Source: Clostridiales bacterium (GTDB lineage Bacteria; Bacillota; Clostridia; Lachnospirales; Lachnospiraceae). Taken from it: a DNA stretch of 64,000 bases. The stretch spans positions 62,001 through 126,000 of the forward strand of contig DUNO01000005.1 of NCBI GenBank assembly GCA_012839295.1, in the 5' to 3' direction. Under the pieces are notes generated by a model, which saw nothing but the letters and a program-made list of their open reading frames with translations, was not told where the DNA came from and made no database searches. This document shows positions 10,030 through 30,675 of this stretch, piece by piece. Position 1 is the stretch's first letter. Each line of letters starts with the position of its first letter. A program made the translations under genes and the position numbers.

Positions 10030-11172
10030 ATGGCAAGAGGAATCTATGTAGGTGTGGGAGGTACTGCGAGGAAGGCTAAAAAGATCTATGTTGGGGTCGA
10101 TGGTGTCGCAAGGAAGGTAAGGAAGATCTATGTAGGTGTGGGCGGTGTCGCAAGGCTGACCTGGAGCGGATATGAATTCAGCCGGCATACCGGGAATGTA
10201 ACAGGCACAACGGAGCCAAATGCAAGGAACATGGGGTCGGCATCCAATGGCGCGTATGCAGTGTTTGCAGGCGGTCTGGGACAATATGGCACATTCTTCA
10301 GTGTTGATGCTTATAATGCATCCCTGGTAAAGACAACTGCACCCTCCCTGCATGTGGCTAGGGCGTTAGCGCATGGTACCAGTATTGGGAACTACGCGTT
10401 TTTCCCGGCAAACGGGATGGGAACCGCCTACGGTGATGCATATAACCAATCCCTGACAAGAACACTCGTTCCACAAGACGGTAATTATACCGGCCAGTGT
10501 GCGCAGCAGAACAGCTTAACCAATCCTGCATTTGCAGTCGTAGGGTTTGGCACATACAGGATGTATCCATATACTAAACAGGGTTCAACGGACATAATAG
10601 ATACTTCACTTGTAAAAACCACAGTATATGCATCCGATAATGCAGGTGTTGGCACGGCATGCATTGGCGGCAATGTATTATTGGCAGGAGGCAGTATAAA
10701 AGGTAACCCAGCAGAACCATATTCGGATACCGTATATTCGGTAAACCCGTCATACGTCAGGACGCAGATTGCGTCATTGTCATCTCCGGCGAAAATGACT
10801 GCAGGAATATGCAATGACAGTTTTGCCCTGTTTGTAGGGAACAATAAGCTGGATAATCCCTGTATAATAGAGGGTTATAATGCTTCGCTCGTTAAGCTTA
10901 CCCCATTTACGTTTGGTAATGCCACTATCAATACGTTCACGGCCATAGACGGTTATATACAGCATCCGGAATTTGCGGCATTTCAGACAATCGGATTAAT
11001 TAATTTGCCTTATTATGCCTACGATACATCCCTGATAAGACATGAATCACCCAGCATTGGGTCATTCGGCAACAGCCCCGGGCATAGGGGGGCGTTTATA
11101 GGCGATTATATGATCCTGGCTGGAGGAAACAATGCTTCGGCCAATGTGGTTGCATTCAATACGGCGGGTTAA
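10030..11172 (+). CDS. receptor-binding tail protein, repeat stem plus Kelch-like propeller
   Basis: Residues 1-50 hold three copies of an 18-residue unit of the type KKIYVGVDGVARKVR, which is also visible as a 54-base tandem repeat at about 10036-10160. The rest (about 60-380) is made of roughly 50-residue blades, each with a phrase like DAYNASLVKTTAPSLHVARA or YNQSLTRTLVPQDG and a glycine-rich strand, consistent with a Kelch-like beta-propeller. This layout is found in clostridial phage tail tips and points to binding of a cell-surface glycan or protein. It is ten bases after the fibre gene, with AAGGAGG at the start. Confidence 0.72.
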   Translation: MARGIYVGVGGTARKAKKIYVGVDGVARKVRKIYVGVGGVARLTWSGYEFSRHTGNVTGTTEPNARNMGSASNGAYAVFAGGLGQYGTFFSVDAYNASLVKTTAPSLHVARALAHGTSIGNYAFFPANGMGTAYGDAYNQSLTRTLVPQDGNYTGQCAQQNSLTNPAFAVVGFGTYRMYPYTKQGSTDIIDTSLVKTTVYASDNAGVGTACIGGNVLLAGGSIKGNPAEPYSDTVYSVNPSYVRTQIASLSSPAKMTAGICNDSFALFVGNNKLDNPCIIEGYNASLVKLTPFTFGNATINTFTAIDGYIQHPEFAAFQTIGLINLPYYAYDTSLIRHESPSIGSFGNSPGHRGAFIGDYMILAGGNNASANVVAFNTAG

Positions 11173-12907: not shown

Positions 12908-13348
12908 ATGGAAAAATTAAATACATTAAAAATTTTATCCGTCAGCATATTCGGACTAATAGGAAGCTTTCTCGCTCAATTACTTGGAGGATGGGATATG
13001 GCATTACAGACGCTGGTACTTTTCATGGCCGTTGACTATATTACCGGACTCATCGTAGCCGGGGTGTTCAAAAAGTCAACAAAGACAGCCAATGGAGCCA
13101 TGGAGAGTAAGGCCGGATTCAAAGGATTATGTAAAAAAGGGATGATACTTCTATATGTCCTCGTAGCCGCCCAGGTGGACAAATTCACGGGGACGGAAAT
13201 CGTAAGAAATGCAGTAGTCATTGGATTTGCTGCAAATGAAGCCTTATCCATCCTTGAAAATGGCGGCCTTATGGGGATCAGGTACCCTGAGATTTTAAAG
13301 AATGCCATTGATTTACTTATCAATAAACCAAAAGAGGGATCCTTATGA
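12908..13348 (+). CDS. phage holin (holin_4_1 / TcdE-like)
   Basis: The 146-residue protein has three membrane segments: about 10-30, about 33-53 (LQTLVLFMAVDYITGLIVAG) and about 75-95. The family signature around VDYITGLIVAGVFKKS is followed by the ESKAGFKGLCKKGMILLYVL region. It would open the membrane to release the lysozyme. Start ATG 12908 follows GAGAGTGATTGC, a weak ribosome site. The endolysin start overlaps its end by four bases. Confidence 0.9.
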   Translation: MEKLNTLKILSVSIFGLIGSFLAQLLGGWDMALQTLVLFMAVDYITGLIVAGVFKKSTKTANGAMESKAGFKGLCKKGMILLYVLVAAQVDKFTGTEIVRNAVVIGFAANEALSILENGGLMGIRYPEILKNAIDLLINKPKEGSL

Positions 13349-13794
13349 AAACAAATGCTGCCGGTATCAGGCTGGTTAAATCCTTTGAAGGATGTCGGCT
13401 GACCGCCTATCAGTGTCCCGCAAAGGTATGGACAATCGGCTATGGGCACACAGGAACAGTGGAAGGAAAGCCAATTAAAGCGGGAATGCGCATCACGGAA
13501 GAAAAAGCGGCTGCCCTGCTGCAGGAAGACCTAACAGGCTTTGAGAAGTCAGTTACAAATTTGGTAAGGGTTAAGCTTACCGAGAACCAATTTGCAGCAC
13601 TGGTTAGCTTTACATATAACGTAGGGGCCGGCAACTTAAAGCGGTCTACCCTGCTAAAAAAGTTAAACGCAGGAGACTACAAGGGAGCAGCTGCTGAATT
13701 TATCAAATGGAACAAAGCAGGGGACATTGTGCTGGCAGGCCTGGTAAGGCGAAGAAAAGAAGAGCAGTCATTATTTTTGGCAAATCACAAGTAA
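13345..13794 (+). CDS. endolysin, GH24 lysozyme (T4/P21 type)
   Basis: The 149-residue protein is a one-domain muramidase. The catalytic arrangement E-x8-(D/C)-x5-T is visible as Glu15, Cys24 and Thr30 (FEGCRLTAYQCPAKVWTIGYG). The second position carries Cys, a variant also known in P22/P21-type enzymes. NQFAALVSFTYNVGAGNLKR follows near 76-95. No signal peptide or wall-binding domain is present, so release depends on the holin. The ATG overlaps the holin stop. Confidence 0.93.
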   Translation: MKTNAAGIRLVKSFEGCRLTAYQCPAKVWTIGYGHTGTVEGKPIKAGMRITEEKAAALLQEDLTGFEKSVTNLVRVKLTENQFAALVSFTYNVGAGNLKRSTLLKKLNAGDYKGAAAEFIKWNKAGDIVLAGLVRRRKEEQSLFLANHK

Positions 13795-14047: not shown

Positions 14048-15349
14048 ATGGAAATCTACATTGTCCTACCAGGAGATACCATTGATTCTATAGCACGCAA
14101 TCATGGAATCACACCTTATAAATTGATACTGGATAATGGAATTGATTATTCACGCAACCTGGTGCCAGGCCAGGCTTTAATTATAATATATCCTACAGAA
14201 ACCTATATAGTCCAAGAAGGCGACACCCTGGGTAGCGTTGCGGCGCGCTACAACATAACCTTTCTGCAGCTGCTGAGAAATAATCCTTTTTTGTATTATA
14301 GGGAATATATTTATCCGGGAGAAACATTGGTTATCCGTTATAACCAGCAGGGCAGTATTGTTACAAATGGATATTCCTATGCTTTTAGTAGAAAAGATAT
14401 GCTGATCCAGTCATTGCCCTACCTGACCTATTTATCCGTGTTTAATTACAGCGCCTCAAGTGAAGGTGAAATTATTTCCTATGATGACGATACGGAAATG
14501 ATCCAGCTGGCCAAATCCTATGGGGTTGCCCCATTAATGATGCTTACCGCCCTGACGCAGAGGGGTGAAGTGAACTATGACCTGTTATATGAATTGTTAT
14601 TAAGCGACGAATATAACAGCCGGTTAATGGATAACATCATAAAAATCCTTCGGGACAAAGGCTTCTATGGGCTGAATATGTTAATCAGCAATATGAACGC
14701 CAGCAATGAACAGCTCTATTTAAGCTTATTTGAAAAAGAATCAAAAATCTTAAAGGACGAAGGCTTCTATTTTAACATTACCTTGAACCCTCAATTAGCA
14801 TTGGTTGATAACCAGGTAGTTTATGAACAGCTGGACTATAGTGCCATAAGCCGGTATGTGGACGGCATCACAATACTGCAGTATGCTTGGGGAACCAATC
14901 CCGGGCCTCCGGCACCGGTTAGCTCGGAATATCTGTTGAGAAGCTTTATAGGGGATATCTCGGCATTTGTTCCATCAGACAAGACCATCATTGGCAAGCC
15001 CCTAATCGGGTACGATTGGGAGCTTCCCTATGTTCCAGGCCGGTCCCAGGCTCTTTCTTTATCAATTGACAGGGCAGTTGCCCTGGCAAAGGAGGTAGGG
15101 GCGGAGATACAATTTGATGAAATGTCGAAGACGCCATTTTTTATGTACAACACCTCCTATAGCGGTCTGCCGATAGAACATATGGTATGGTTTATTGATA
15201 TCAGGAGTATTGATGCCCTGACAAGAATAATTGACGATTTTAATCTAAGCGGTTCAGGTATTTGGAATATCATGATATTTTATCAGCAAATGTGGAGCCT
15301 GCTAAATTATAAATATGATATCGTAAAGCTTATGCCGGGCCATCTATAA
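14048..15349 (+). CDS. LysM2-GH18-like protein with lost catalytic site (SleL/YaaH-like)
   Basis: Two LysM domains (about 2-48 and 51-97) precede a GH18-type barrel, the arrangement of spore cortex-lytic SleL/YaaH proteins, at a normal 433 residues. In active relatives the strand-4 motif ends in D-x-E (as in GLNIDFE). Here residues 208-216 read GLNMLISNM, so both acids are replaced. It should bind glycan but not hydrolyse it by the normal route. No signal peptide is seen, as in other coat-located relatives. CATATAAT lies about 20 bases before the start and resembles a mother-cell sigma -10, but the -35 is poor. The neighbouring phage lysozyme is unrelated. Confidence 0.82.
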   Translation: MEIYIVLPGDTIDSIARNHGITPYKLILDNGIDYSRNLVPGQALIIIYPTETYIVQEGDTLGSVAARYNITFLQLLRNNPFLYYREYIYPGETLVIRYNQQGSIVTNGYSYAFSRKDMLIQSLPYLTYLSVFNYSASSEGEIISYDDDTEMIQLAKSYGVAPLMMLTALTQRGEVNYDLLYELLLSDEYNSRLMDNIIKILRDKGFYGLNMLISNMNASNEQLYLSLFEKESKILKDEGFYFNITLNPQLALVDNQVVYEQLDYSAISRYVDGITILQYAWGTNPGPPAPVSSEYLLRSFIGDISAFVPSDKTIIGKPLIGYDWELPYVPGRSQALSLSIDRAVALAKEVGAEIQFDEMSKTPFFMYNTSYSGLPIEHMVWFIDIRSIDALTRIIDDFNLSGSGIWNIMIFYQQMWSLLNYKYDIVKLMPGHL

Positions 15350-15433: not shown

Positions 15434-15466
15434 TTTAAACTTCATTTAAAGTAACCATGCTATACT
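15434..15466 (+). promoter_or_regulatory. direct-repeat operator and promoter of the alarmone/two-component operon
   Basis: Two 11-base units, TTTAAACTTCA (15434-15444) and TTTAAAGTAAC (15445-15455), lie five bases before a TATACT -10 at 15461-15466. The -35 position has no consensus, as expected when an OmpR-family activator bound to head-to-tail sites recruits polymerase. The 19-base stretch TTTAAACTTCATTTAAAGT matches 18534-18552 (TTTAAAGTTCATTTTAAGT) at all but two positions. Confidence 0.65.
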
Positions 15467-15530
15467 CCTCCTATAGGGAAACGGACCTACCGGATTAACC
15501 CAATCGATTTACAACAGGAGGAACAGGCTA

Positions 15531-16196
15531 ATGCTACAAACAAAACATGATATCGTATGTGAATCCTGGTCAACAGAACAGCAATTTTACCAGGAAGCGT
15601 ATGTCCTGTTGGAGGGTGCCATCACCGAGGTGCTGTCGAGGCTGGACATTATCCGTAAATACAGGGCAATGAAAAATGCCAAGGATCCCATTGAACACTG
15701 CAAGGCCAGGATTAAATCAGCAGAAAGCATGGGGGAAAAATTATCGCGGAGGGGGCTTCCCATCACCGTGGAAAATGCCCTGACAGAAATCTATGATGCA
15801 GCTGGGATCCGTGTGGTATGCACCTTTCTGGATGATATTTATTGGGTTGTGGACATGCTTAGGAACCAGAAGGATATCGCCGTCATGAAAGAAAAGGATT
15901 ATATCCGTGACCCGAAGCCTAACGGCTACCGCAGCTACCACATGATCCTGCAGGTGCCAATCCATTTGGAGGACCAGGTCCACATGGTGTACTGTGAGCT
16001 GCAGATACGCACCATTGCAATGGACTGCTGGGCCAGCCTGGAGCATCAGCTAAAATATAAGAAGGATATTCCAAACCAGGACATGATTGTCGGTGAATTA
16101 AAGCGGTGCGCCGATGAGATTGCTTCAACTGATTTGAATTTTCAAGCCATATGGGATATGATAGAGGAAGTACAGCAGGATGATATTTACGGTTAA
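15531..16196 (+). CDS. small alarmone synthetase, (p)ppGpp synthetase RelQ/YjbM type
   Basis: The 221-residue protein has only the RelA/SpoT synthetase fold, with no HD hydrolase, TGS or ACT domain. Visible motifs are DAAGIRVVCTFLDDIYWV (about 85-102), RDPKPNGYRSYHM (about 123-135) and VYCELQIRTIAMDCWASLEH (about 148-167); the last holds the catalytic ELQIRT. It transfers pyrophosphate from ATP to GDP or GTP. A strong AGGAGGAAC precedes the ATG. It sits 138 bases upstream of a response regulator-kinase pair and shares their promoter region, so envelope or stress signals may set alarmone level. No clear terminator separates them. Confidence 0.9.
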   Translation: MLQTKHDIVCESWSTEQQFYQEAYVLLEGAITEVLSRLDIIRKYRAMKNAKDPIEHCKARIKSAESMGEKLSRRGLPITVENALTEIYDAAGIRVVCTFLDDIYWVVDMLRNQKDIAVMKEKDYIRDPKPNGYRSYHMILQVPIHLEDQVHMVYCELQIRTIAMDCWASLEHQLKYKKDIPNQDMIVGELKRCADEIASTDLNFQAIWDMIEEVQQDDIYG

Positions 16197-16334
16197 TAGC
16201 TGGCAGCCTTAATCCGGAGGCCATGGGCTTTGGAGCTTTTTTGGGTTTTCTGGAGCTTATTTCATAGAAACAGGTATTTTGATGCAAATTAAAGGTGGGG
16301 CATATTACAAGGGAAATTGATTTGGGAGGTTACA

Positions 16335-17006
16335 ATGAGAGTATTGTTGGCGGAAGATGAAAAGGAAATGTCAAACGCCCTGGTTGCGATTTTAAAACAC
16401 AACAATTATTCCGTGGATGCCGTATATGATGGGGCGGACGCGCTGGACTATGGGCTGTCGGAAAACTATGACGTGATCGTATTAGATATTATGATGCCGA
16501 AGCTAAGCGGGATCGAGGTGCTGGAGAAATTAAGGGCAAGCGGGATACATACCCCGATTCTTATGCTTACGGCAAAATCACAGATTGAGGACCGTATTCT
16601 CGGACTGGATAAGGGAGCGGATGATTATTTGAGTAAACCCTTTGCGATGGGGGAGCTCCTGGCCAGGATCCGTGCCATGGGCAGGAGGAAGTCGGAATTC
16701 ACCCCGAATTTGCTTCAGGTTGGGAATATCAGTTTAAATAAAGAAAACTATGAGCTTTCCAATGAGAAGTCATCCCTACGGCTGGGAAATAAAGAGTTCC
16801 AGATGATGGAGATGCTTATGACAAACCCGAAACGGCTTATTTCCACGGAGCAGTTCATGGAGCGCATCTGGGGCTATGATGCCGAGGCGGAGATCAATGT
16901 GGTTTGGGTCTACATTTCCTATCTGCGCCGTAAGCTGGAGTCCCTGAATGCAAATATCAGGATTAAAGCGGTCAGAGGAAGCGGCTATAGCCTGGAGGAA
17001 ATATAG
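16335..17006 (+). CDS. OmpR-family response regulator
   Basis: This 223-residue protein has an N-terminal receiver (phospho-acceptor Asp51 in IVLDIMMPK, acidic pocket at AEDE, Lys in DDYLSKPFA) and a C-terminal winged helix with YISYLRRKLE and RGSGYSL. I chose ATG 16335, seven bases after GGGAGG, rather than the in-frame TTG at 16317. The kinase starts on the next base after the stop. Its likely targets are its own operon and the VTC operon, which share 11-base-phased repeats of the kind OmpR-type dimers bind. Confidence 0.93.
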   Translation: MRVLLAEDEKEMSNALVAILKHNNYSVDAVYDGADALDYGLSENYDVIVLDIMMPKLSGIEVLEKLRASGIHTPILMLTAKSQIEDRILGLDKGADDYLSKPFAMGELLARIRAMGRRKSEFTPNLLQVGNISLNKENYELSNEKSSLRLGNKEFQMMEMLMTNPKRLISTEQFMERIWGYDAEAEINVVWVYISYLRRKLESLNANIRIKAVRGSGYSLEEI

Positions 17007-18260
17007 ATGATTAAAAAGCTGCAGCGAAAGTTCATTATGATAACGATGGGATCCCTTTTCCTGGTCATGCTTTTCCTGATTGGACTGACCAATGGCATTT
17101 ATTTTGTCCAGACGGAGATAAAGACCAACGAGTCAATCAGCATCATCGCAGAAAATGAGGGTAAATTTCCGGAATTCATTAAGGGTGACCACATGAACGG
17201 TCCCCCAAAAACAGACGAGCCCTTTACCCCTTTATTTGGCTTTAGGATGAATGCGGAAACCCCCTATGAAAAAAGGTATTTTATCGTGGAGCTAGGGTTC
17301 GACGGCTCCGTTAACCAGATTAATACCAGCCATATTGCGGCTGTCACCTCTAAGGATGCCCTGGAATACGCAACGGATATTATTGAAAGCGGAAAGACTG
17401 GCGGATATATGGGTATCTATAAGTACAAGGTAATAGAAAAGGATACCGGGAATATGATCGTGTTCATGGATTGTAGGAGCCAGATCCAGTCAGAGCTTTT
17501 GCTGCTTGTGATCTCCTGTGTTGTTGGTGTGTCGACATTGATCCTGATGTTTGTCCTTTTAACTGTCCTGTCCCGGAGGGCAATGCGACCCTTTGTAGAA
17601 AATGCAGAAAAACAGAAGCTGTTTATTACGGATGCCGGGCACGAAATAAAAACACCCCTTGCAATTATTTCCGCAAATGCAGATGTTCTGGAGCTGACAG
17701 GCGGAGAGAATGAGTGGATCGGGAGCATCCGCAACCAGGTGGCCCGCCTGGATAAGCTGGTTAAGAACCTCCTGACCTTATCTAAGATGGAGGAAGAAGG
17801 CCTTAAGCTGACCTTTGCACATTTTAATTTAAGTGAGGCGGTAGCTAAAATCGCCGGATCCTTTGAGGCGGTAGCAGAAGCTAAGAATAAGAGGCTTCGA
17901 ATGGATATACAGCCTGGTATCATGTTAAATGGGGATGAGGACAGTATGGAGCAGCTTGTGTCCACCCTGATGGACAATGCCATGAAATATTCTAATGATG
18001 GAGGCAGCATTAAGATAAGTCTGGCAGGGACGAAAAAAGGCGTGAAGTTAGAGGTTTATAATACGGCGGAAAGCCTGGATGCGTCAAATCTGGACCGGCT
18101 ATTTGACCGTTTCTACCGGGCGGATTCCTCAAGGGCAAGGGAAACCGGCGGTTATGGAATCGGGCTTTCTATTGCAAAATCCATTGTAGAAGCACACAAG
18201 GGGAGGATTTCAGTTAAAAGTGAGGATGGCAAATCCATCTGCTTTACGGTGCTGATTTAG
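17007..18260 (+). CDS. sensor histidine kinase
   Basis: This 417-residue kinase has two membrane segments (about 9-34 and 163-188) around an extracytoplasmic sensor of about 125 residues. A HisKA domain follows with His212 in DAGHEIKTPLAII, then an HATPase domain with the N box (TLMDNAMKYS), G1 region and YGIGLSIAKSIVEAHKG. It pairs with the regulator at 16335, whose stop it directly follows. The ligand cannot be told from sequence. Confidence 0.92.
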   Translation: MIKKLQRKFIMITMGSLFLVMLFLIGLTNGIYFVQTEIKTNESISIIAENEGKFPEFIKGDHMNGPPKTDEPFTPLFGFRMNAETPYEKRYFIVELGFDGSVNQINTSHIAAVTSKDALEYATDIIESGKTGGYMGIYKYKVIEKDTGNMIVFMDCRSQIQSELLLLVISCVVGVSTLILMFVLLTVLSRRAMRPFVENAEKQKLFITDAGHEIKTPLAIISANADVLELTGGENEWIGSIRNQVARLDKLVKNLLTLSKMEEEGLKLTFAHFNLSEAVAKIAGSFEAVAEAKNKRLRMDIQPGIMLNGDEDSMEQLVSTLMDNAMKYSNDGGSIKISLAGTKKGVKLEVYNTAESLDASNLDRLFDRFYRADSSRARETGGYGIGLSIAKSIVEAHKGRISVKSEDGKSICFTVLI

Positions 18261-18278
18261 CTTTCTTGTCAGGTGGTT

Positions 18279-18352
18279 CATAGTCAAGAATGGTGTATAG
18301 CCAAGGATGAGGTACAGTCGAGAATAAGGCATAGTCAAGAGTAAGATATAGT
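18279..18352 (+). repeat. 17-bp tandem repeat, about 4.3 copies
   Basis: Units start at 18279 (CATAGTCAAGAATGGTG), 18296 (TATAGCCAAGGATGAGG), 18313 (TACAGTCGAGAATAAGG), 18330 (CATAGTCAAGAGTAAGA) and 18347 (partial). The period is exactly 17. They lie between the kinase stop and its terminator, so they are transcribed into the 3' untranslated region. Confidence 0.8.
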
Positions 18353-18354
18353 AA

Positions 18355-18400
18355 AAAGCTTCCGGAGTCTTAGCAGCTAAGGCTGGCGGAAGCTTTTTTT
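18355..18400 (+). terminator. intrinsic terminator of the two-component operon
   Basis: AAAGCTTCCG (18355-18364) pairs with CGGAAGCTTT (18387-18396), followed by T to 18400. Confidence 0.88.
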
Positions 18401-18511
18401 GTTTTGTCCCCAGATTTCTAATAGATTGATTTATTAATTCTGAAACGAAAGAAGCCATTTTATCCATTATAGTCATCTCTTTCTCCAGCCCAATGAAAAA
18501 GTTCTGCAAAT

Positions 18512-18579
18512 TTAAGGTTAAATTAAGGTTAATTTTAAAGTTCATTTTAAGTTGGACGGTTAAAATAAATTCATAAGAT
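18512..18579 (+). promoter_or_regulatory. four-unit 11-bp operator array and promoter of the VTC operon
   Basis: Four head-to-tail units with an 11-base step occupy 18512-18555: TTAAGGTTAAA, TTAAGGTTAAT, TTTAAAGTTCA, TTTTAAGTTGG. The last overlaps a -35 TTGGAC (18552-18557); TAAGAT (18574-18579) follows after 16 bases. Head-to-tail sites with one helical turn spacing are typical for OmpR/PhoB regulators. The last two units nearly equal the site at 15434-15455. Confidence 0.72.
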
Positions 18580-18647: not shown

Positions 18648-19382
18648 ATGGGTGGTTTTCAAGATACCTTTAAAAGATATGAGATGAAGTATTTGTTAGA
18701 GGAGAAGAAGTATGATTTACTGCGAGAAAGGCTTCAAGAGAAAATGGAGGTTGACCACTTTGGAAAAGTGACCATATGCAATATTTATTTTGATACACCG
18801 GAGCATCTGCTTATCCGGACTTCCATGGATAAGCCGGTTTATAAAGAAAAGCTGAGATTACGAAGCTACGGAACACCGGATGAAGGAGATAAGGTATTTG
18901 TGGAAATTAAGAAGAAATACAAAGGTGTTGTATATAAAAGACGGGAAAAGCTGGAATTGACGGATGCGGAGCACTATTTATATGATAACTATCCCAGCAA
19001 AAAGCAGACACAGATAACAAAGGAAATTGATTGGTTTATAAAATCTTATCAGAATTTAATTCCTTCCATGTATATCTCCTACGAACGGGTAGCAATGTAT
19101 GCAGTTGATAATCCGGAAGTTAGAGTGACCTTTGATAATAATATTTTATGGAGGGAGGAAGAGCTTTGGCTGGAAAGCGGAGCCTGGGGCAATCCGATTC
19201 TAAAGGAGGGCCAAAGGCTGATGGAAATAAAGATTCCCGGAACAATGCCACTATGGTTAGCACACATATTAAATGAGTTAGAGATATTTCCATCATCATT
19301 TTCAAAATACGGAAAAGGATATCTTCAATCAATAGAAATTCAGAAAGAAACAATTACAAAAGGAGAGAAATTATATGCTTAA
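18648..19382 (+). CDS. VTC-domain protein, putative polyphosphate polymerase
   Basis: The 244-residue protein is a bacterial VTC-fold enzyme of the triphosphate tunnel type. It has RYEMKYLLEEKKYDLL at the start, NIYFDTPEHLLIRTSMDKP (about 48-66), KEKLRLRSYG (about 69-78), VFVEIKKKYKGVVYKRR (about 86-102) and ISYERVAMY (about 149-157). These basic strands line the tunnel that holds polyphosphate. In yeast Vtc4 the domain makes polyphosphate from ATP. ATG 18648 follows GGAGGACAATT. The stop overlaps the DUF4956 start by eight bases, and the pair is a recurrent neighbourhood in Firmicutes. Confidence 0.88.
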   Translation: MGGFQDTFKRYEMKYLLEEKKYDLLRERLQEKMEVDHFGKVTICNIYFDTPEHLLIRTSMDKPVYKEKLRLRSYGTPDEGDKVFVEIKKKYKGVVYKRREKLELTDAEHYLYDNYPSKKQTQITKEIDWFIKSYQNLIPSMYISYERVAMYAVDNPEVRVTFDNNILWREEELWLESGAWGNPILKEGQRLMEIKIPGTMPLWLAHILNELEIFPSSFSKYGKGYLQSIEIQKETITKGEKLYA

Positions 19383-20040
19383 TTCTATTTTAACTAATAC
19401 ATGGTCCATTGAGATTTTCCTAATCTGTACAGTTGCCTCTTTGGCTTTAGGAGCCGTACTTGCCATTGTTCATGGAAGATTCAATAACAGCAGCAAAGGC
19501 TTTGTAATGACAATGGCGCTATTGCCGGCTGTTGTGCAGATTGTAATTTTACTGGTTAACGGTAACCTGGGAACGGGTGTTGCGGTTATGGGTGCTTTCA
19601 GCTTAATCAGGTTCCGGTCTGTTCCAGGCAGTGCAAAGGAAATCAGCAGCTTATTCATGGCTATGGCAGTCGGATTAGCCACAGGAACAGGTTATGTTGG
19701 AGTAGCAGTGCTATTTGTCCTAATCGTTGGAGGCGTCAGTGTTCTCTTTAACGTTACCAGCTTCGGGGAAACAAAAACCAGAGAAAAGGAGTTAAGGATC
19801 ACGATACCCGAAGGTATGGATTATATGGAGATATTTAATGATGTTTTTGACGAGTATACAAAAAAGACCGAGCTAATCCGGGTAAGGACTTCAAACATGG
19901 GAAGCCTCTATAAATTACATTATCAAATCCTATTAAAAGATCCTGCGAAGGAAAAAGCACTTATTGATGAACTTCGTTGCAGGAACGGAAACCTGGAAAT
20001 CTCCTGCGGCATAGTTTCAGGCCAGGCAGAGGGGCTATAA
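19375..20040 (+). CDS. DUF4956 membrane protein
   Basis: The 221-residue protein has about four hydrophobic segments in residues 10-125 (LICTVASLALGAVLAIVHG, MALLPAVVQIVILLVNG, then two around VGLATGTGYVGVAVLF). A conserved cytoplasmic stretch FSLIRFRSVPGSAKEISSLF lies between them, and a soluble C-terminal domain of about 85 residues follows. DUF4956 proteins are nearly always encoded next to VTC-domain proteins. A role in moving or sensing the polymer is plausible but unproven. It overlaps the VTC gene. Confidence 0.88.
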   Translation: MLNSILTNTWSIEIFLICTVASLALGAVLAIVHGRFNNSSKGFVMTMALLPAVVQIVILLVNGNLGTGVAVMGAFSLIRFRSVPGSAKEISSLFMAMAVGLATGTGYVGVAVLFVLIVGGVSVLFNVTSFGETKTREKELRITIPEGMDYMEIFNDVFDEYTKKTELIRVRTSNMGSLYKLHYQILLKDPAKEKALIDELRCRNGNLEISCGIVSGQAEGL

Positions 20041-20062: not shown

Positions 20063-21820
20063 ATGAAGAAAAAATTATTAGGAATACTATCAGCCCTTTT
20101 AATCACAGCGATGCTGTTAACGGGCTGTACAAATGCAGGCACCGGTTCTGAAGCTACTACGGAAGGGACATCCGCCTCATCCTCCTCAGATTCAACCGCT
20201 TCTAAGGATGGGAATTCTTCCTCAGCAGTGGCTACTACGACCTCATCAGAGATAGTGGTGGATACGGAGTTTTCAGCAAGAGATCTGGAAGTTGGGTATA
20301 ATGAAAGTACAGCCACAACGATAACGTTAAATGGCAGCAGTATTGAAATAGCCGGCAATGGTGCAACGGCGGATGGAAGCATACTAACAATCAGTGAAGA
20401 AGGTACTTATGTCATCAGCGGAACGCTGAATGACGGTCAGATTATTGTAGACGCAAATGCAGACGAAGCAAAGGTTCAATTGGTCTTAAACGGTGTAACG
20501 ATTCAATGTTCAGATAATGCACCCATCTATGTTAAGAATGCAGATAAAGTGTTCATTACTTTGGCTGAGAATTCAAAGAATAGCCTGACAGATGGCACAG
20601 AATATGTTCAGACCGATGATAATACGGTAGATGGAGTAATCTTTAGTAAGGCTGATCTTACCTTAAATGGTAACGGAAGCCTGGACATAACAGGAAATTA
20701 TAAGCATGGAATTGTTTCGAAGGATGATCTGGTAATCACAAGCGGTACCTATAATATAACCGTAGCTAAGGATGCTCTTAACGGTAAGGATTGCGTAAAG
20801 ATTAAAGATGGAACCCTAACCTTAAGTGCAACGGAAGGAAACGGCATTCAGTCCAAGAACGGAGATGATACAACAAAAGGATATGTATATATCGCAGGAG
20901 GAACAATTACAGTTACCAACAGCCAGGAAGGTATTGAAGGAACGGCAATTGTGATAGCCGGTGGTACCATTGACGTAACAGCGCAGGACGATGGCTTAAA
21001 TGCAGCCGCTGGAAGTGCTTCTACGGCAGATACAACAACTACACAGCCAGATACAACAGCTCCTCAACCAGATGCAGCTGCACAGGATTCAGCAAAAACG
21101 CTTTCTGCTGATTCTACCGAAATCCCAGTGACTACTTTGTCAACTATGACAGTTACAACCTCCTCAGATACCTCAACGGATGGAGCATCCCCTGCAACAG
21201 CACAGGGTGAGACAGCAATGAGAAGAGGCCCCGGAAGGGATGGAGAAATGAACGGCGGAATGGGAGGCGGTGAAATGGCAAATAACCCAAACTGCTACAT
21301 CTCCATTTCTGGCGGTACCATCACCATTAATGCAGAAGGTGATGGCATTGATTCCAACGGCTCTATTGAGATCTCTGGCGGTAATGTCTATGTAAACGGT
21401 CCGACAAATAGCGGCAATGGGGCAATGGATTATAATGGAACAGCTAATATAACAGGAGGAACCGTTGTAATAGCAGGAAGTGTTGGAATGGCTCAAGGGT
21501 TTTCTGGCACCTCAACACAGTATTCCATTTTATATAATTTTTCTGCCAGCAGTGCAGCTGGCACAGAGGTAACAATAAAAGATGCTGACGGCAATGTAGT
21601 AATTTCCTATACTCCTGAGAAGCAGTATCAGTCAGTAGTAATCAGCTCACCTGACCTTCAAAAGGATGCAACTTATACGATAACCAGCGGTGACCAAACA
21701 GCAGACCTTACATTAAGCTCTGTCTCCACCAGCGGAGGCGAAGCAGGCGCCAGCTTCCCAGGAGGTATGGGTGGTGGAAGAAATGGTGAAAGAAATGGCG
21801 GAGGAACAATGCCAAACTAA
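20063..21820 (+). CDS. carbohydrate-binding (DUF4353-type) lipoprotein
   Basis: The 585-residue protein begins with a lipoprotein signal peptide with lipobox LLTGC (Cys22). A Ser/Thr linker (about 25-75) follows, then a beta-rich domain with repeated NGN/ISGGT turns (TLNGNGSLDITGNYKHGIVS, YIAGGTITVTNSQEGIEG, ISGGTITINAEGDGIDSNGS) like that of the DUF4353 carbohydrate-binding family. Low-complexity Thr/Pro/Asp (about 315-390) and Gly/Met/Arg-rich stretches (RRGPGRDGEMNGGMGGGE, and near the C-terminus) separate or follow the repeats. It is the third gene of the VTC operon, 22 bases after DUF4956. In related clusters this place may hold CotH-kinase proteins. It is likely surface exposed. Confidence 0.85.
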   Translation: MKKKLLGILSALLITAMLLTGCTNAGTGSEATTEGTSASSSSDSTASKDGNSSSAVATTTSSEIVVDTEFSARDLEVGYNESTATTITLNGSSIEIAGNGATADGSILTISEEGTYVISGTLNDGQIIVDANADEAKVQLVLNGVTIQCSDNAPIYVKNADKVFITLAENSKNSLTDGTEYVQTDDNTVDGVIFSKADLTLNGNGSLDITGNYKHGIVSKDDLVITSGTYNITVAKDALNGKDCVKIKDGTLTLSATEGNGIQSKNGDDTTKGYVYIAGGTITVTNSQEGIEGTAIVIAGGTIDVTAQDDGLNAAAGSASTADTTTTQPDTTAPQPDAAAQDSAKTLSADSTEIPVTTLSTMTVTTSSDTSTDGASPATAQGETAMRRGPGRDGEMNGGMGGGEMANNPNCYISISGGTITINAEGDGIDSNGSIEISGGNVYVNGPTNSGNGAMDYNGTANITGGTVVIAGSVGMAQGFSGTSTQYSILYNFSASSAAGTEVTIKDADGNVVISYTPEKQYQSVVISSPDLQKDATYTITSGDQTADLTLSSVSTSGGEAGASFPGGMGGGRNGERNGGGTMPN

Positions 21821-22157: not shown

Positions 22158-22418
22158 ATGGAAGCTGCAACCTATCAATGTCCAATATGCCTGGGAAAAA
22201 AGCTCACACTACGGTATGAAGCGGGTTATGTTTATTCTTATGTGATTGACTCAGATGCACCGGGCTTAAAGAATCATGAGGAATTTCTATCTTTTCTATA
22301 CGACAAACGAGAACAAAAGGATACAAGGACGTATATTGAATGTAACCAATGCGGTACTCAGTATCCGTATACCTTTCTAAATGGTGTATTAGAAAGCGGC
22401 AACCGCACAGAAGAATAA
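22158..22418 (+). CDS. small two-zinc-knuckle hypothetical protein
   Basis: The 86-residue protein has CPICLGKK near residue 9 and CNQCGTQYPY near residue 67, two CxxC pairs that can bind one zinc. Between them is an acidic region with SDAPGLKNHEEFLSFLYD. ATG 22158 follows TTGAGGAATTC. It stands alone between the VTC operon and a decayed regulator. Function unknown; a small zinc-binding adaptor is possible. Confidence 0.6.
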   Translation: MEAATYQCPICLGKKLTLRYEAGYVYSYVIDSDAPGLKNHEEFLSFLYDKREQKDTRTYIECNQCGTQYPYTFLNGVLESGNRTEE

Positions 22419-26080: not shown

Positions 26081-26666
26081 GATATTTATTGTCATGGGTA
26101 AGAGCTCAACAGGAAAAGACACTATTTACAAAAAGCTAATGGATTGCGGGGAGCTGGGACTAAAGACAGCAGTTATGTATACGACACGGCCGATCAGGAA
26201 ATCAGAAGAGAACGGGGTGGAATATTATTTTGTTAATGAGGATACCTTAAGGGAGCTTCAAATGCAGAATAAGATAATTGAACACCGTTCCTATCAGACA
26301 ATCCATGGCATATGGCATTATTTTACTGTCAATGACGGGCAGATTAACCTGGATGAGGCGGATTACTTAATGATAGGCACCCTGGAAACCTTTGAACAGA
26401 TCCGTGAATATTTTGGTAAGGATAAGGTGGTTCCGGTCTATCTTGAGGTGGAGGATGGAATTCGCCTGATGAGGGCCTTAAAAAGGGAGCAAAAGCAGGA
26501 GCATCCGAAATATGCGGAGATGTGCAGGCGTTATTTGGCGGATGAGGAGGACTTCTCGGAGGAAAACCTGCGAAAGGCCGGAATAATAAAGAGATATAAT
26601 AATTATGATATCAGCCGGTGTCTGGCCGAGGTAATCAGTGACATCAAAAGTTATACTGTAAAGTAG
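26073..26666 (+). CDS. guanylate kinase-like protein
   Basis: The 197-residue protein has the P-loop VMGKSSTGKDTIYKKL (about 7-22) and the guanylate-kinase landmarks MYTTRPIRKSEENGVEYYFV (about 35-54), plus a conserved ERNNGxxxYG-like region replaced by IEHRSYQTIHGIWHYF. It is a diverged relative rather than the housekeeping Gmk and is regularly found between the decarboxylase and the yaaR-holB block. It would phosphorylate a nucleoside monophosphate or act as a regulator. Its last 60 bases recur in decayed form at 30679-30741. Confidence 0.82.
   Translation: MGKIFIVMGKSSTGKDTIYKKLMDCGELGLKTAVMYTTRPIRKSEENGVEYYFVNEDTLRELQMQNKIIEHRSYQTIHGIWHYFTVNDGQINLDEADYLMIGTLETFEQIREYFGKDKVVPVYLEVEDGIRLMRALKREQKQEHPKYAEMCRRYLADEEDFSEENLRKAGIIKRYNNYDISRCLAEVISDIKSYTVK
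26631..26666 (+). repeat. cassette-flanking direct repeat, left copy (gene 3' end)
   Basis: These 36 bases, the last codons of the guanylate-kinase-like gene including its TAG, match 30706-30741 at 34 positions. Upstream, GATATCAG also occurs in both copies (26607 and 30679). See the right copy for the interpretation. Confidence 0.85.
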
Positions 26667-28746: not shown

Positions 28747-28790
28747 AAAGATAGCTTGTACCTAATGGATTGGAAAATGTGAGGCAGGAA

Positions 28791-29468
28791 ATGAAGATAC
28801 TGGTTATAGAAGATGAGCTTATGCTTGCGGATACGCTTGTGGAAATATTAAAACAAAATAATTATTCTGTTGATCTCTGCCATAACGGGAAAAAGGGATG
28901 GGAATGCATACAGACAGAAGTTTATGACGGCATAGTATTAGACATTATGATACCGAAAATGAGCGGTTACGAGATTTTGAAGGCAATGCGGGCGGCAAAT
29001 ATTAATACACCGGTTCTCATACTTACCGCCAGATCGGAAATGGAGGATATTGTAACGGGCCTTGACTGTGGAGCGGATGATTATATGACCAAGCCTTTTG
29101 CAATTACAGAGTTTTTGGCACGGATCAGGGCCGTTACAAGAAGAAAGGAATATATCCTTCCTGATAATCCGTCAATGGGAAATGTGGTATTATTACAGCA
29201 GCAATGCACACTGTCCTGTAAAGGCAATTCGATCAGCCTGGGAAAAAAGGAATATCAGATCATGGAGCTGCTGTTGAATAATTGCAGCCAGAAGGTATCA
29301 AAGGAGCAGCTGATTGAAAAGGTCTGGGGCTTTGACAGCGACTGTGAATATAACAATATTGAAGTCTACATTTCCTTTCTGCGTAAAAAGCTAAAGGCAA
29401 TCGAAGCGGATATTACGATCAGCAATACCAGAGGCCTGGGCTATTATCTGGAGGTTCTGAATGATTAA
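28791..29468 (+). CDS. OmpR-family response regulator (second system)
   Basis: This 225-residue protein is a paralogue of the regulator at 16335, with the same layout: receiver with Asp51 (IVLDIMIPKMSGYEILKAMR), conserved ADDYMTKPFA, and a winged helix ending YISFLRRKLKA-like and TRGLGYYLEV. ATG 28791 follows GAGG at good spacing; TTG 28772 and GTG 28779 are less likely. It overlaps the kinase start by eight bases. It is part of the cassette bounded by the direct repeats. Confidence 0.92.
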   Translation: MKILVIEDELMLADTLVEILKQNNYSVDLCHNGKKGWECIQTEVYDGIVLDIMIPKMSGYEILKAMRAANINTPVLILTARSEMEDIVTGLDCGADDYMTKPFAITEFLARIRAVTRRKEYILPDNPSMGNVVLLQQQCTLSCKGNSISLGKKEYQIMELLLNNCSQKVSKEQLIEKVWGFDSDCEYNNIEVYISFLRKKLKAIEADITISNTRGLGYYLEVLND

Positions 29469-30675
29469 GGAAATGAGGTATAAATTTATACTGGTCACCT
29501 TTAGTGCGCTGCTTCTGATTGTCATCCTGATCTTGGGAACCATCTATATCTCAGTCGCCTATAGCAATGAGAGCAATATGAATAAAAAGATGGAGAAGGT
29601 TCTGGGAAATGACGGAAGGACTTTAAGAAACTGGACGAAGAATATAAACAGCCATGCCTTTTCTAACTCCCGGGAGGAATTTCTAAATAGTACCTTTGCC
29701 GTCAGATTGGATGAATCAAAGAGAATTTTAGAGATTATCGGGTATCAGGAAGAGGACTACCCCGATGTAAGTATTCAGGAGCTGGCAGATAAGGCCCTGC
29801 AAATAAAAAAGGAAAAGGGAAGCATCGGAGACCTTAAATTTCTCTCAGGCAAAAAGGCTTATGGCTATATGCTGGTATTTTCTGATTACAGTGAGCAAAA
29901 CAGCATGCTGGATAATCTTTTTCATACCTGCCTTTTCATGGGGATCGCGGGAAGCCTTCTTATCGGCTTGTTTATTATTAGGCTGTCCTATTGGGTAGTA
30001 GGTCCTGTGGACAGAGCTTTCAAAATGCAGAAAAATTTTATTTCCAATGCCAGCCATGAGCTGAAGACGCCTCTCACGGTTATTTCTGCCAATGCGGAGC
30101 TGTTGGAGAATAGTAATGCGAATAGGAAATGGGTCAGGACGATTAAGGAAAATACGGAGCGGATGAATGCCCTGGTCAATGACCTGCTAAGCTTAAGCCG
30201 CATGGAGGATAAGGCAAAGATAAAGGAGTTCCAAACCTTTAATTTAAGCAAAGTCGTAGTCAATGCGGTGCTTACGATGGACAGTGTGGCCTATGAACAG
30301 CAAAAAGAGCTGTCTACTGGGATTACAGAAAATATTTTTTACTATGGTGAGCAGGATAAAATTAAGGAACTGGTTATCATTCTCCTGGATAATGCCATTA
30401 AATATTCGGATGAAAAAGGAAGGGTTAAGGTAAGCCTTTATGAAAAAAATAAAAGGGCGGTCCTGGAGGTATTTAATACCGGACCTATAATACCAAAGGA
30501 AGAAGGGGATAAAATCTTTGAACGATTTTACCGGGGTAATACGAACGCCGAAAACATCACCGACGGTTTTGGCTTAGGGTTGCCTATAGCAAAGGCAATA
30601 ACGGTCATGCATAAAGGGAAAATTGGCTTTGAGAACATAAAAGGGGCAGGGGTTAAATTTGTAGTCAAGCTTTGA
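29461..30675 (+). CDS. sensor histidine kinase (second system)
   Basis: This 404-residue kinase has membrane segments at about 10-33 and 155-178, a sensor loop of about 120 residues, the phospho-acceptor His199 in NASHELKTPLTVISA, an HATPase domain with ILLDNAIKYSDEKG, and FGLGLPIAKAITVMHKGKIG. It is a paralogue of the kinase at 17007. The stop at 30673-30675 lies three bases before the decayed copy of the guanylate-kinase-like gene end. Confidence 0.92.
   Translation: MIKEMRYKFILVTFSALLLIVILILGTIYISVAYSNESNMNKKMEKVLGNDGRTLRNWTKNINSHAFSNSREEFLNSTFAVRLDESKRILEIIGYQEEDYPDVSIQELADKALQIKKEKGSIGDLKFLSGKKAYGYMLVFSDYSEQNSMLDNLFHTCLFMGIAGSLLIGLFIIRLSYWVVGPVDRAFKMQKNFISNASHELKTPLTVISANAELLENSNANRKWVRTIKENTERMNALVNDLLSLSRMEDKAKIKEFQTFNLSKVVVNAVLTMDSVAYEQQKELSTGITENIFYYGEQDKIKELVIILLDNAIKYSDEKGRVKVSLYEKNKRAVLEVFNTGPIIPKEEGDKIFERFYRGNTNAENITDGFGLGLPIAKAITVMHKGKIGFENIKGAGVKFVVKL

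Follow-up and report, generated by a model that had tools for sequence, protein, structure and literature searches.

The question raised by this locus is why two neighbouring operons, one encoding a small alarmone synthetase together with an OmpR-type response regulator and its histidine kinase and the other a VTC-domain protein, a DUF4956 protein and a Cthe_2159-type carbohydrate-binding protein, are each preceded by nearly the same 19-base sequence. The locus lies in a stretch of 64,000 nucleotides (nt; the window) of Clostridiales bacterium, a member of the Lachnospiraceae (GenBank assembly GCA_012839295.1, contig DUNO01000005.1, positions 62,001 to 126,000). We consider it likely that the repeats are activator sites of the regulator encoded between them, and that this regulator switches on both operons. 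Judged from the comparison of genomes, the core of this wiring is the regulator-kinase pair with the VTC-DUF4956-Cthe_2159 genes, and the synthetase, which is of the RelP/SasA type, is a recurrent and often lost accessory. The elements on which the argument turns are the following.

15434..15452, + strand: operator 1, a single site, TTTAAACTTCATTTAAAGT, ahead of the synthetase-regulator-kinase operon (23.7 bits, second best in 64 kb)
15461..15466, + strand: -10-like hexamer TATACT, 8 nt past operator 1, read from the sequence
15531..16196, + strand: small alarmone synthetase of the RelP/SasA (YwaC) type, 221 amino acids (Pfam RelA_SpoT, 8.1e-33)
16335..17006, + strand: OmpR-type response regulator, assigned to clade A (see below) by Pfam, tree and recognition helix
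17007..18260, + strand: histidine kinase, the regulator's partner (Pfam, tree)
18353..18398, + strand: intrinsic-terminator-like hairpin between the two operons
18511..18529, + strand: distal operator of the VTC promoter, TTTAAGGTTAAATTAAGGT (15.8 bits), 23 nt upstream of the proximal one
18534..18552, + strand: proximal operator of the VTC promoter, TTTAAAGTTCATTTTAAGT (25.3 bits, the window's best)
18561..18566, + strand: -10-like hexamer TAAAAT, 8 nt past the proximal operator, read from the sequence
18648..19382, + strand: VTC-domain protein (Pfam VTC, 8.3e-43)
19375..20040, + strand: DUF4956 protein with a predicted helical N-terminal part (Pfam, 4.7e-14)
20063..21820, + strand: Cthe_2159-type carbohydrate-binding protein with an N-terminal lipobox-like LLTGC (Pfam, 7.2e-77)

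An operator shared by two operons

An earlier reading of the window, made from the letters alone (the sequence-only reading), had reported the two 19-mers at 15434 and 18534, each just ahead of a -10 and with an OmpR-type regulator gene between them, and all of this is found in the sequence; the two sites differ at 2 of 19 positions, and both end 8 nt before a -10-like hexamer. Its description of both sites as 11-base head-to-tail units is apt for operator 1, whose halves TTTAAACTTCA and TTTAAAGT form a clear repeat, whereas at the VTC promoter the proposed four units are read more accurately as a pair of 19-mers whose offset is 23 bases instead of 22. After the two operators, the next-best matrix scores in the 64 kb are the 15.8 bits of the distal VTC unit and 15.3 bits at 26244 on the minus strand. 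The hairpin between the operons was not listed by a simple terminator scan, but it stood out when the region 18345-18410 was folded against shuffled sequences (minimum free energy -27.1 kcal/mol, z -4.40, with 0 of 200 shuffles equally stable). As it separates the two operons, a promoter of their own is expected for the VTC genes. Folding of the 138-base gap between the synthetase and regulator genes gave a hairpin no more stable than those of shuffles (z 0.62).

All 17 orthologous promoters examined, which come from nine other genomes (G039 among them being of another family of the order), contain the motif, and in each it is followed by a TAnnnT hexamer at 8 nt, by our own reading of the matrix output. 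These regions lie upstream of regulator, synthetase or VTC genes and, in G004, of the Cthe_2159-type gene; for G012 the VTC promoter sequence was taken from L021, which is the same Herbinix-like stretch as L172. The matrix was seeded with the two window sites and then rebuilt from the 17 relatives' promoters alone, the -10 not being included, and close relatives of the window may be lacking from the compared set. On the strength of this comparison, the operator motif is a phylogenetic footprint.

The same matrix was applied to held-out loci with a cut-off of at least 12 bits, which was our choice. This score was reached by 15 of 23 VTC promoters in L210-L249 (kinase matches from the top of the list, some omitted, to which L291-L298 add eight more) and by 10 of 75 in a wider sample (L022-L100). 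Counted per locus, with a second regulator in a locus also counted, 18 of 41 regulator promoters in clade A loci had such a site, 17 of them with a -10 at 8 nt, the corresponding numbers being 0 of 33 for clade B loci and 7 of 1818 for other genes. Four of the other genes in L210-L249 exceeded 15 bits, three of them close to clade A two-component genes. These three may be further targets of the regulator, namely an operon of a glycosyltransferase (GT2/GtrA) and a phosphodiester glycosidase (NAGPA) upstream of the regulator with a 24.1-bit site (L215:8898-11071), a gene behind the synthetase for a beta-helix-like lipoprotein (L234; no Cthe_2159 match, and a beta-helix match below the cut-off only), and an FtsX-type ABC transporter gene behind the kinase (L246). 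In G004, where the 19 kb read contained neither VTC nor DUF4956, it is the Cthe_2159-type gene itself that has the operator.

Distribution of the motif in the genome

The motif is not common elsewhere in the genome (6,362,661 bases), an outcome on which the sequence-only reading had made its proposal depend. Its own pattern, which was derived from the two window sites and matches both without mismatch, occurs with no or one mismatch at the operators 15434 and 18534 alone. With up to three mismatches there are 61 places, 59 of them with two or three, whereas the reversed control yields 69, which places loose matches no higher than background; in the window, 20 of 100 shuffles held at least two matches with up to three mismatches, and the loose window count is therefore weak on its own. 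The consensus TTTAARGTNNNTTTAARGT, which comes mainly from the relatives, is found with at most one mismatch at five places, three of them in this locus, and with at most two at 34 places (control 59). We read 39 loci from these two lists of 61 and 34 matches, and a TAnnnT hexamer 8 nt on accompanied only the two window sites and a third one of 3.7 bits; with three such loci in 39, a large regulon in this genome was rejected. Among 4000 shuffles of the 387-nt stretch upstream of the VTC gene, none contained a plus-strand 19-mer within two mismatches of operator 1.

The regulator clade and its likeness to CiaR

A midpoint-rooted tree of 119 regulator-kinase pairs (without G029 and G012, whose pairs are cut by contig ends) contains a clade A of 48 tips, which holds the window pair (support 0.81), and a clade B of 32 tips (0.99). 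In clade A, 31 of 48 tips have a VTC gene within 5 kb (7 of these 31 derive from VTC-anchored loci), and in clade B none of 32. The recognition helix is near-invariant in clade A, with tryptophan as the third residue in all 48 sequences. The motif tracks this clade and is most likely read by the window regulator.

The promoters resemble those of the CiaRH regulon of streptococci, for which an extract of PMC3091779 gives the site TTTAAG-N5-TTTAAG with the -10 ten bases on. Repeat core, 5-base spacer and -10 distance are alike, as hexamers 5 bases apart and a -10 ten bases after the second occur in both window promoters and in all 17 promoters of the relatives. CiaR is also an OmpR-type regulator, and its recognition helix, the part compared, shares 8 of 13 residues with that of clade A by our count. 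In contrast, CiaR needs G at the sixth base of each hexamer, whereas A or G is found there in the window system and its relatives, operator 1 reading TTTAAA twice. The window system differs further in its targets, the VTC-DUF4956-Cthe_2159 genes and the synthetase, and in having a double operator with a 23-base period.

Single and double operators

Among 43 VTC promoters with a proximal site and a -10, a second 19-mer (at least 7 bits, searched 12-35 nt upstream) was present in 13, those of the window, seven training loci and five held-out loci, and in all 13 it stands exactly 23 nt upstream. The same arrangement was found in 0 of 27 regulator or synthetase promoters and in 0 of 43 background stretches. 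This difference in operator number suggests that the two operons may respond with different thresholds or strengths.

In the mechanism that we propose, the phosphorylated regulator would bind the 11-base repeat head-to-tail and take the place of the -35 element at a fixed distance of 8 nt from the -10. The single site would switch on the synthetase-regulator-kinase operon, from which read-through would close a positive feedback loop and put the dose of the RelP/SasA-type alarmone under transcriptional control; the double site with its fixed 23-base period would switch on the VTC-DUF4956-Cthe_2159 operon. Binding by the regulator, activation rather than repression, and read-through are what we infer. 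The sequence-only reading had let the kinase-regulator pair govern itself, alarmone synthesis and the VTC genes, and the common operator for the synthetase and VTC operons is backed by the comparison; what is conserved as a core, in contrast, is the link between regulator and VTC, with the synthetase as an accessory. For the self-control that it assumed, no matching site precedes the regulator gene 16335-17006 (best upstream score 4.1 bits), so that in this genome such control would need read-through from the synthetase promoter.

The missing site before the regulator gene weighs against the proposed mechanism, as do the 138 bases that lie between the synthetase and regulator genes. Activation is argued solely from the position of the operators. 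Many held-out promoters score below 12 bits (among regulator promoters of clade A 23 of 41, and among VTC promoters 65 of 75 in the wider and 8 of 23 in the narrower sample), which points to drift of the motif or to other control, and 6 of 48 VTC promoters for which the fetched stretch holds no regulator nevertheless reach 12 bits.

The alarmone synthetase

From its sequence, the synthetase should make the bacterial stress signal (alarmone). It is a lone synthetase domain without a hydrolase domain and is nearer to RelP/YwaC than to RelQ/YjbM (phmmer 4.9e-46 for YwaC versus 5.3e-30 at best for YjbM; the NCBIfam YjbM model gives 155 bits, with a cut-off of 320). Among 71 listed synthetase matches in genomes that also have a listed kinase match, 36 lie within 4 kb of a member of this kinase family, with about 0.2 expected (best 150 matches per query, 397 genomes of the family, and an assumed genome size of 3 Mb). 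Most of the 36 are part of tight clade B synthetase-regulator-kinase operons with no VTC gene in the stretch read, which argues for an association of the synthetase with the sensor pair and not with VTC. Such clade B operons (L259-L290) recur within the family; since these loci were picked for a synthetase beside the kinase, the 32 synthetase-linked tips among 32 clade B tips do not represent a frequency. Another small alarmone synthetase, about 40% identical, is encoded some 5-8 kb from a PhoR-like kinase at G000:C5:125784 and in a number of genomes of the same genus.

In clade A, a synthetase gene within 5 kb is present at 9 of 48 tips, and its position varies, being upstream of the regulator, downstream of the kinase, or inside or behind the VTC operon. 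The synthetase tree groups the window type with G004, G029 and G236 (support 0.90, the deeper placement being weak at 0.25), and L289, L234, L241, L231, L072 and L094 form a separate group (0.99 with L272). These two groups with their different locus positions suggest that the synthetase was recruited twice in clade A. Clade A operons that contain a synthetase are preceded by a site of at least 13.4 bits, including L241 and L231, where the synthetase sits in the VTC operon and the best sites have 14.6 and 18.1 bits.

Loss has left traces as well. Of the 12 stretches examined ahead of the regulator gene, four (G016, G039, G227 and G139) still contain the last codons of the synthetase (tblastn E values 2e-6 to 4e-4), with stops in the remnant of G139, and in G012 the gene is broken into two open frames. 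The synthetase looks ancestral in the subgroup of the window and seems to have been lost several times. One feature inside the gene belongs here.

16134..16162, + strand: promoter-like TTGAAT-17-TATGAT within the 3'-terminal part of the synthetase gene (sigma-70 scan, 9/12)

This stretch corresponds to the piece that survives as a remnant in some relatives without a synthetase gene and is perhaps kept as a promoter of the regulator. As the scan listed 15 sites versus 15.5 expected, that is, not above chance, it is the survival of the remnant that speaks for this promoter.

Genes of RelP/SasA type are placed under VraRS in Staphylococcus aureus and under WalKR in Bacillus subtilis in extracts of PMC6853874, PMC7533549 and PMC10117726, and two-component control of such enzymes is thus already known. 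The window would add a further, predicted case. It differs in that the genes for the presumed controlling pair follow the synthetase gene and that the operator is common to the VTC operon; a controlling pair inside the synthetase's own operon is new to us. The sequence-only reading knew of no description of the arrangement, and none was found in the open-licence literature of PubMed Central (PMC), although its two ingredients, the CiaR layout and two-component control of RelP/SasA, have precedents.

The VTC operon

The start of the DUF4956 gene overlaps the stop of the VTC gene, and in the stretches fetched around 80 VTC anchors a DUF4956 gene was present 78 times, a Cthe_2159-type gene 45 times and an OmpR-type regulator match 30 times. 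In a metagenome-assembled genome of Herbinix, also of the Lachnospiraceae, the VTC protein is 93% identical to that of the window. The structural model of the VTC protein (predicted local distance difference test, pLDDT, 91.6) has the yeast polyphosphate polymerase Vtc4 (3g3r) as its best Foldseek match (4.4e-12), and a profile of 34 sequences matches Vtc4 at 1.7e-12, whereas phmmer with the single protein retrieved nothing from the PDB. The invariant R70 and R72 align by our count with the RLR pair R264 and R266 of Vtc4, which an extract of PMC8749416 describes as essential. The protein is thus modelled with a triphosphate-tunnel fold like that of Vtc4, with which it shares these two arginines, and polymerase activity is predicted. 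Unlike in yeast, the membrane partner would be DUF4956. Pfam gave VTC and CYTH matches for the window protein and no SPX domain, which the catalytic subunit of the eukaryotic VTC complex has. The DUF4956 model (pLDDT 76.7) has five N-terminal helices and a C-terminal ACT-like domain; its fold matches, to ACT-like domains and the C-terminal domain of MgtC, are weak (E 0.0068 at best), and Pfam MgtC is found weakly in 12 of 43 DUF4956 members (best E 0.0069) and not in the window protein.

In an extract of PMC7112168, VTC-type, DUF4956 and CotH genes are accessories of Gram-positive Pel loci. The window likewise has a VTC-type gene followed by DUF4956, and differs in having a Cthe_2159-type protein instead of CotH as well as a dedicated regulator; in L210, a CotH gene (Pfam 4.2e-35) comes after the clade A kinase. 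The Pel-locus accessories and the CotH gene of L210 favour a surface polymer as the possible business of this operon, rather than storage granules or a circuit like that of PPX in Escherichia coli. The polyphosphate link of the sequence-only reading draws on the fold and the active-site residues, and the gene setting does not favour the PPX circuit.

Alternative explanations

The regulator might do no more than serve the VTC-DUF4956-surface-protein operon, as a dedicated regulator of the usual kind, the synthetase being a passenger behind an autoregulated promoter with no functional tie to VTC. We regard this as a serious competitor, if a somewhat doubtful one: 39 of 48 clade A tips lack a synthetase gene within 5 kb, the four upstream regions mentioned above retain a 3' remnant only, and just 2 of the 80 VTC-anchored loci have a synthetase in the fetched stretch. 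Against it, the clade A synthetases come from two parts of the synthetase tree and stand at varied positions, in operons headed by a site. The closeness of half of the listed synthetases to the kinase also counts, although, as most of these are clade B operons lacking VTC, it favours an association with the sensor pair and not with VTC.

The sites might also be bound by another OmpR-type regulator, for example one like PhoP or WalR, instead of the neighbouring pair, and 11-base direct repeats are indeed common for regulators of this type. This is unlikely, because the motif goes with clade A and was absent from all 33 regulator promoters of clade B loci, and because full matches in the genome are nearly limited to this locus, a distribution more in keeping with a dedicated than with a global regulator. 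That the regulator represses at these sites rather than activates has a precedent in WalR, which represses sasA in B. subtilis according to an extract of PMC6853874, and yet appears improbable here: the sites occupy the -35 position, with constant spacing to the -10, as in the CiaR-activated promoters of the extract cited above, and the sigma-70 scan listed no -35/-10 pair over either of them. Finally, chance similarity of AT-rich sequence, for which the background level of loose matches in the genome and of three-mismatch matches in the window could be quoted, was rejected and can be given next to no weight in view of conservation, spacing, the held-out loci and the shuffled VTC upstream stretches.

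Neighbouring features

Several further observations concern the surroundings of the two operons. Between the kinase gene and the terminator, at 18279-18351, there is a tandem repeat with a 17-base period and four degenerate copies. Just upstream of the locus, at 12908-13794, are two phage-type genes, one for a holin (Pfam 2e-34) and one for a lysozyme (3e-53), and the open reading frame (ORF) 10030-11172 gave no match in the Pfam scan. The gene next to the cluster is the following.

14048-15349: LysM/GH18 gene, adjoining the cluster

Relatives of this gene are near the cluster in G016, G012, G004 and G029 too, on varying sides. Downstream, a small ORF at 22158-22418 with two CxxC pairs and no match in the Pfam scan is 81% identical in G016 and 97% identical in the Herbinix stretch, where it is found beside the VTC operon. 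A second OmpR-type regulator and kinase pair is encoded at 28770-30675, its kinase being 32% identical to the first, and a similar pair comes after the VTC operon in the Herbinix stretch.

Implications

What the system might do can be sketched with some hesitation. The kinase may report the state of the envelope or surface, the VTC operon may build or decorate a surface (phospho)polymer, and the alarmone may slow growth, a picture of which we are slightly more doubtful than confident. Bolder, and more speculative still, is the view of the locus as an envelope-response module of Lachnospiraceae, in which a code of single and double operators would co-dose a RelP-type alarmone and a membrane-bound VTC/DUF4956 machine for polyphosphate or a phospho-glycan; clade B would then be a related family of operons whose alarmone enzyme is dedicated to a sensor pair, and the tie between alarmone and polyphosphate would be transcriptional and have arisen at least twice.

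The locus offers a concrete wiring diagram, with operators given to the single base, of when an alarmone might be made apart from the ribosome-linked stringent response. It also provides a regulatory handle on VTC/DUF4956 genes, on whose role in bacteria little was found in the open-licence PMC literature. In E. coli the link between alarmone and polyphosphate is biochemical. If one sensor does co-induce alarmone and polyphosphate synthesis in this organism, the link here would be transcriptional.

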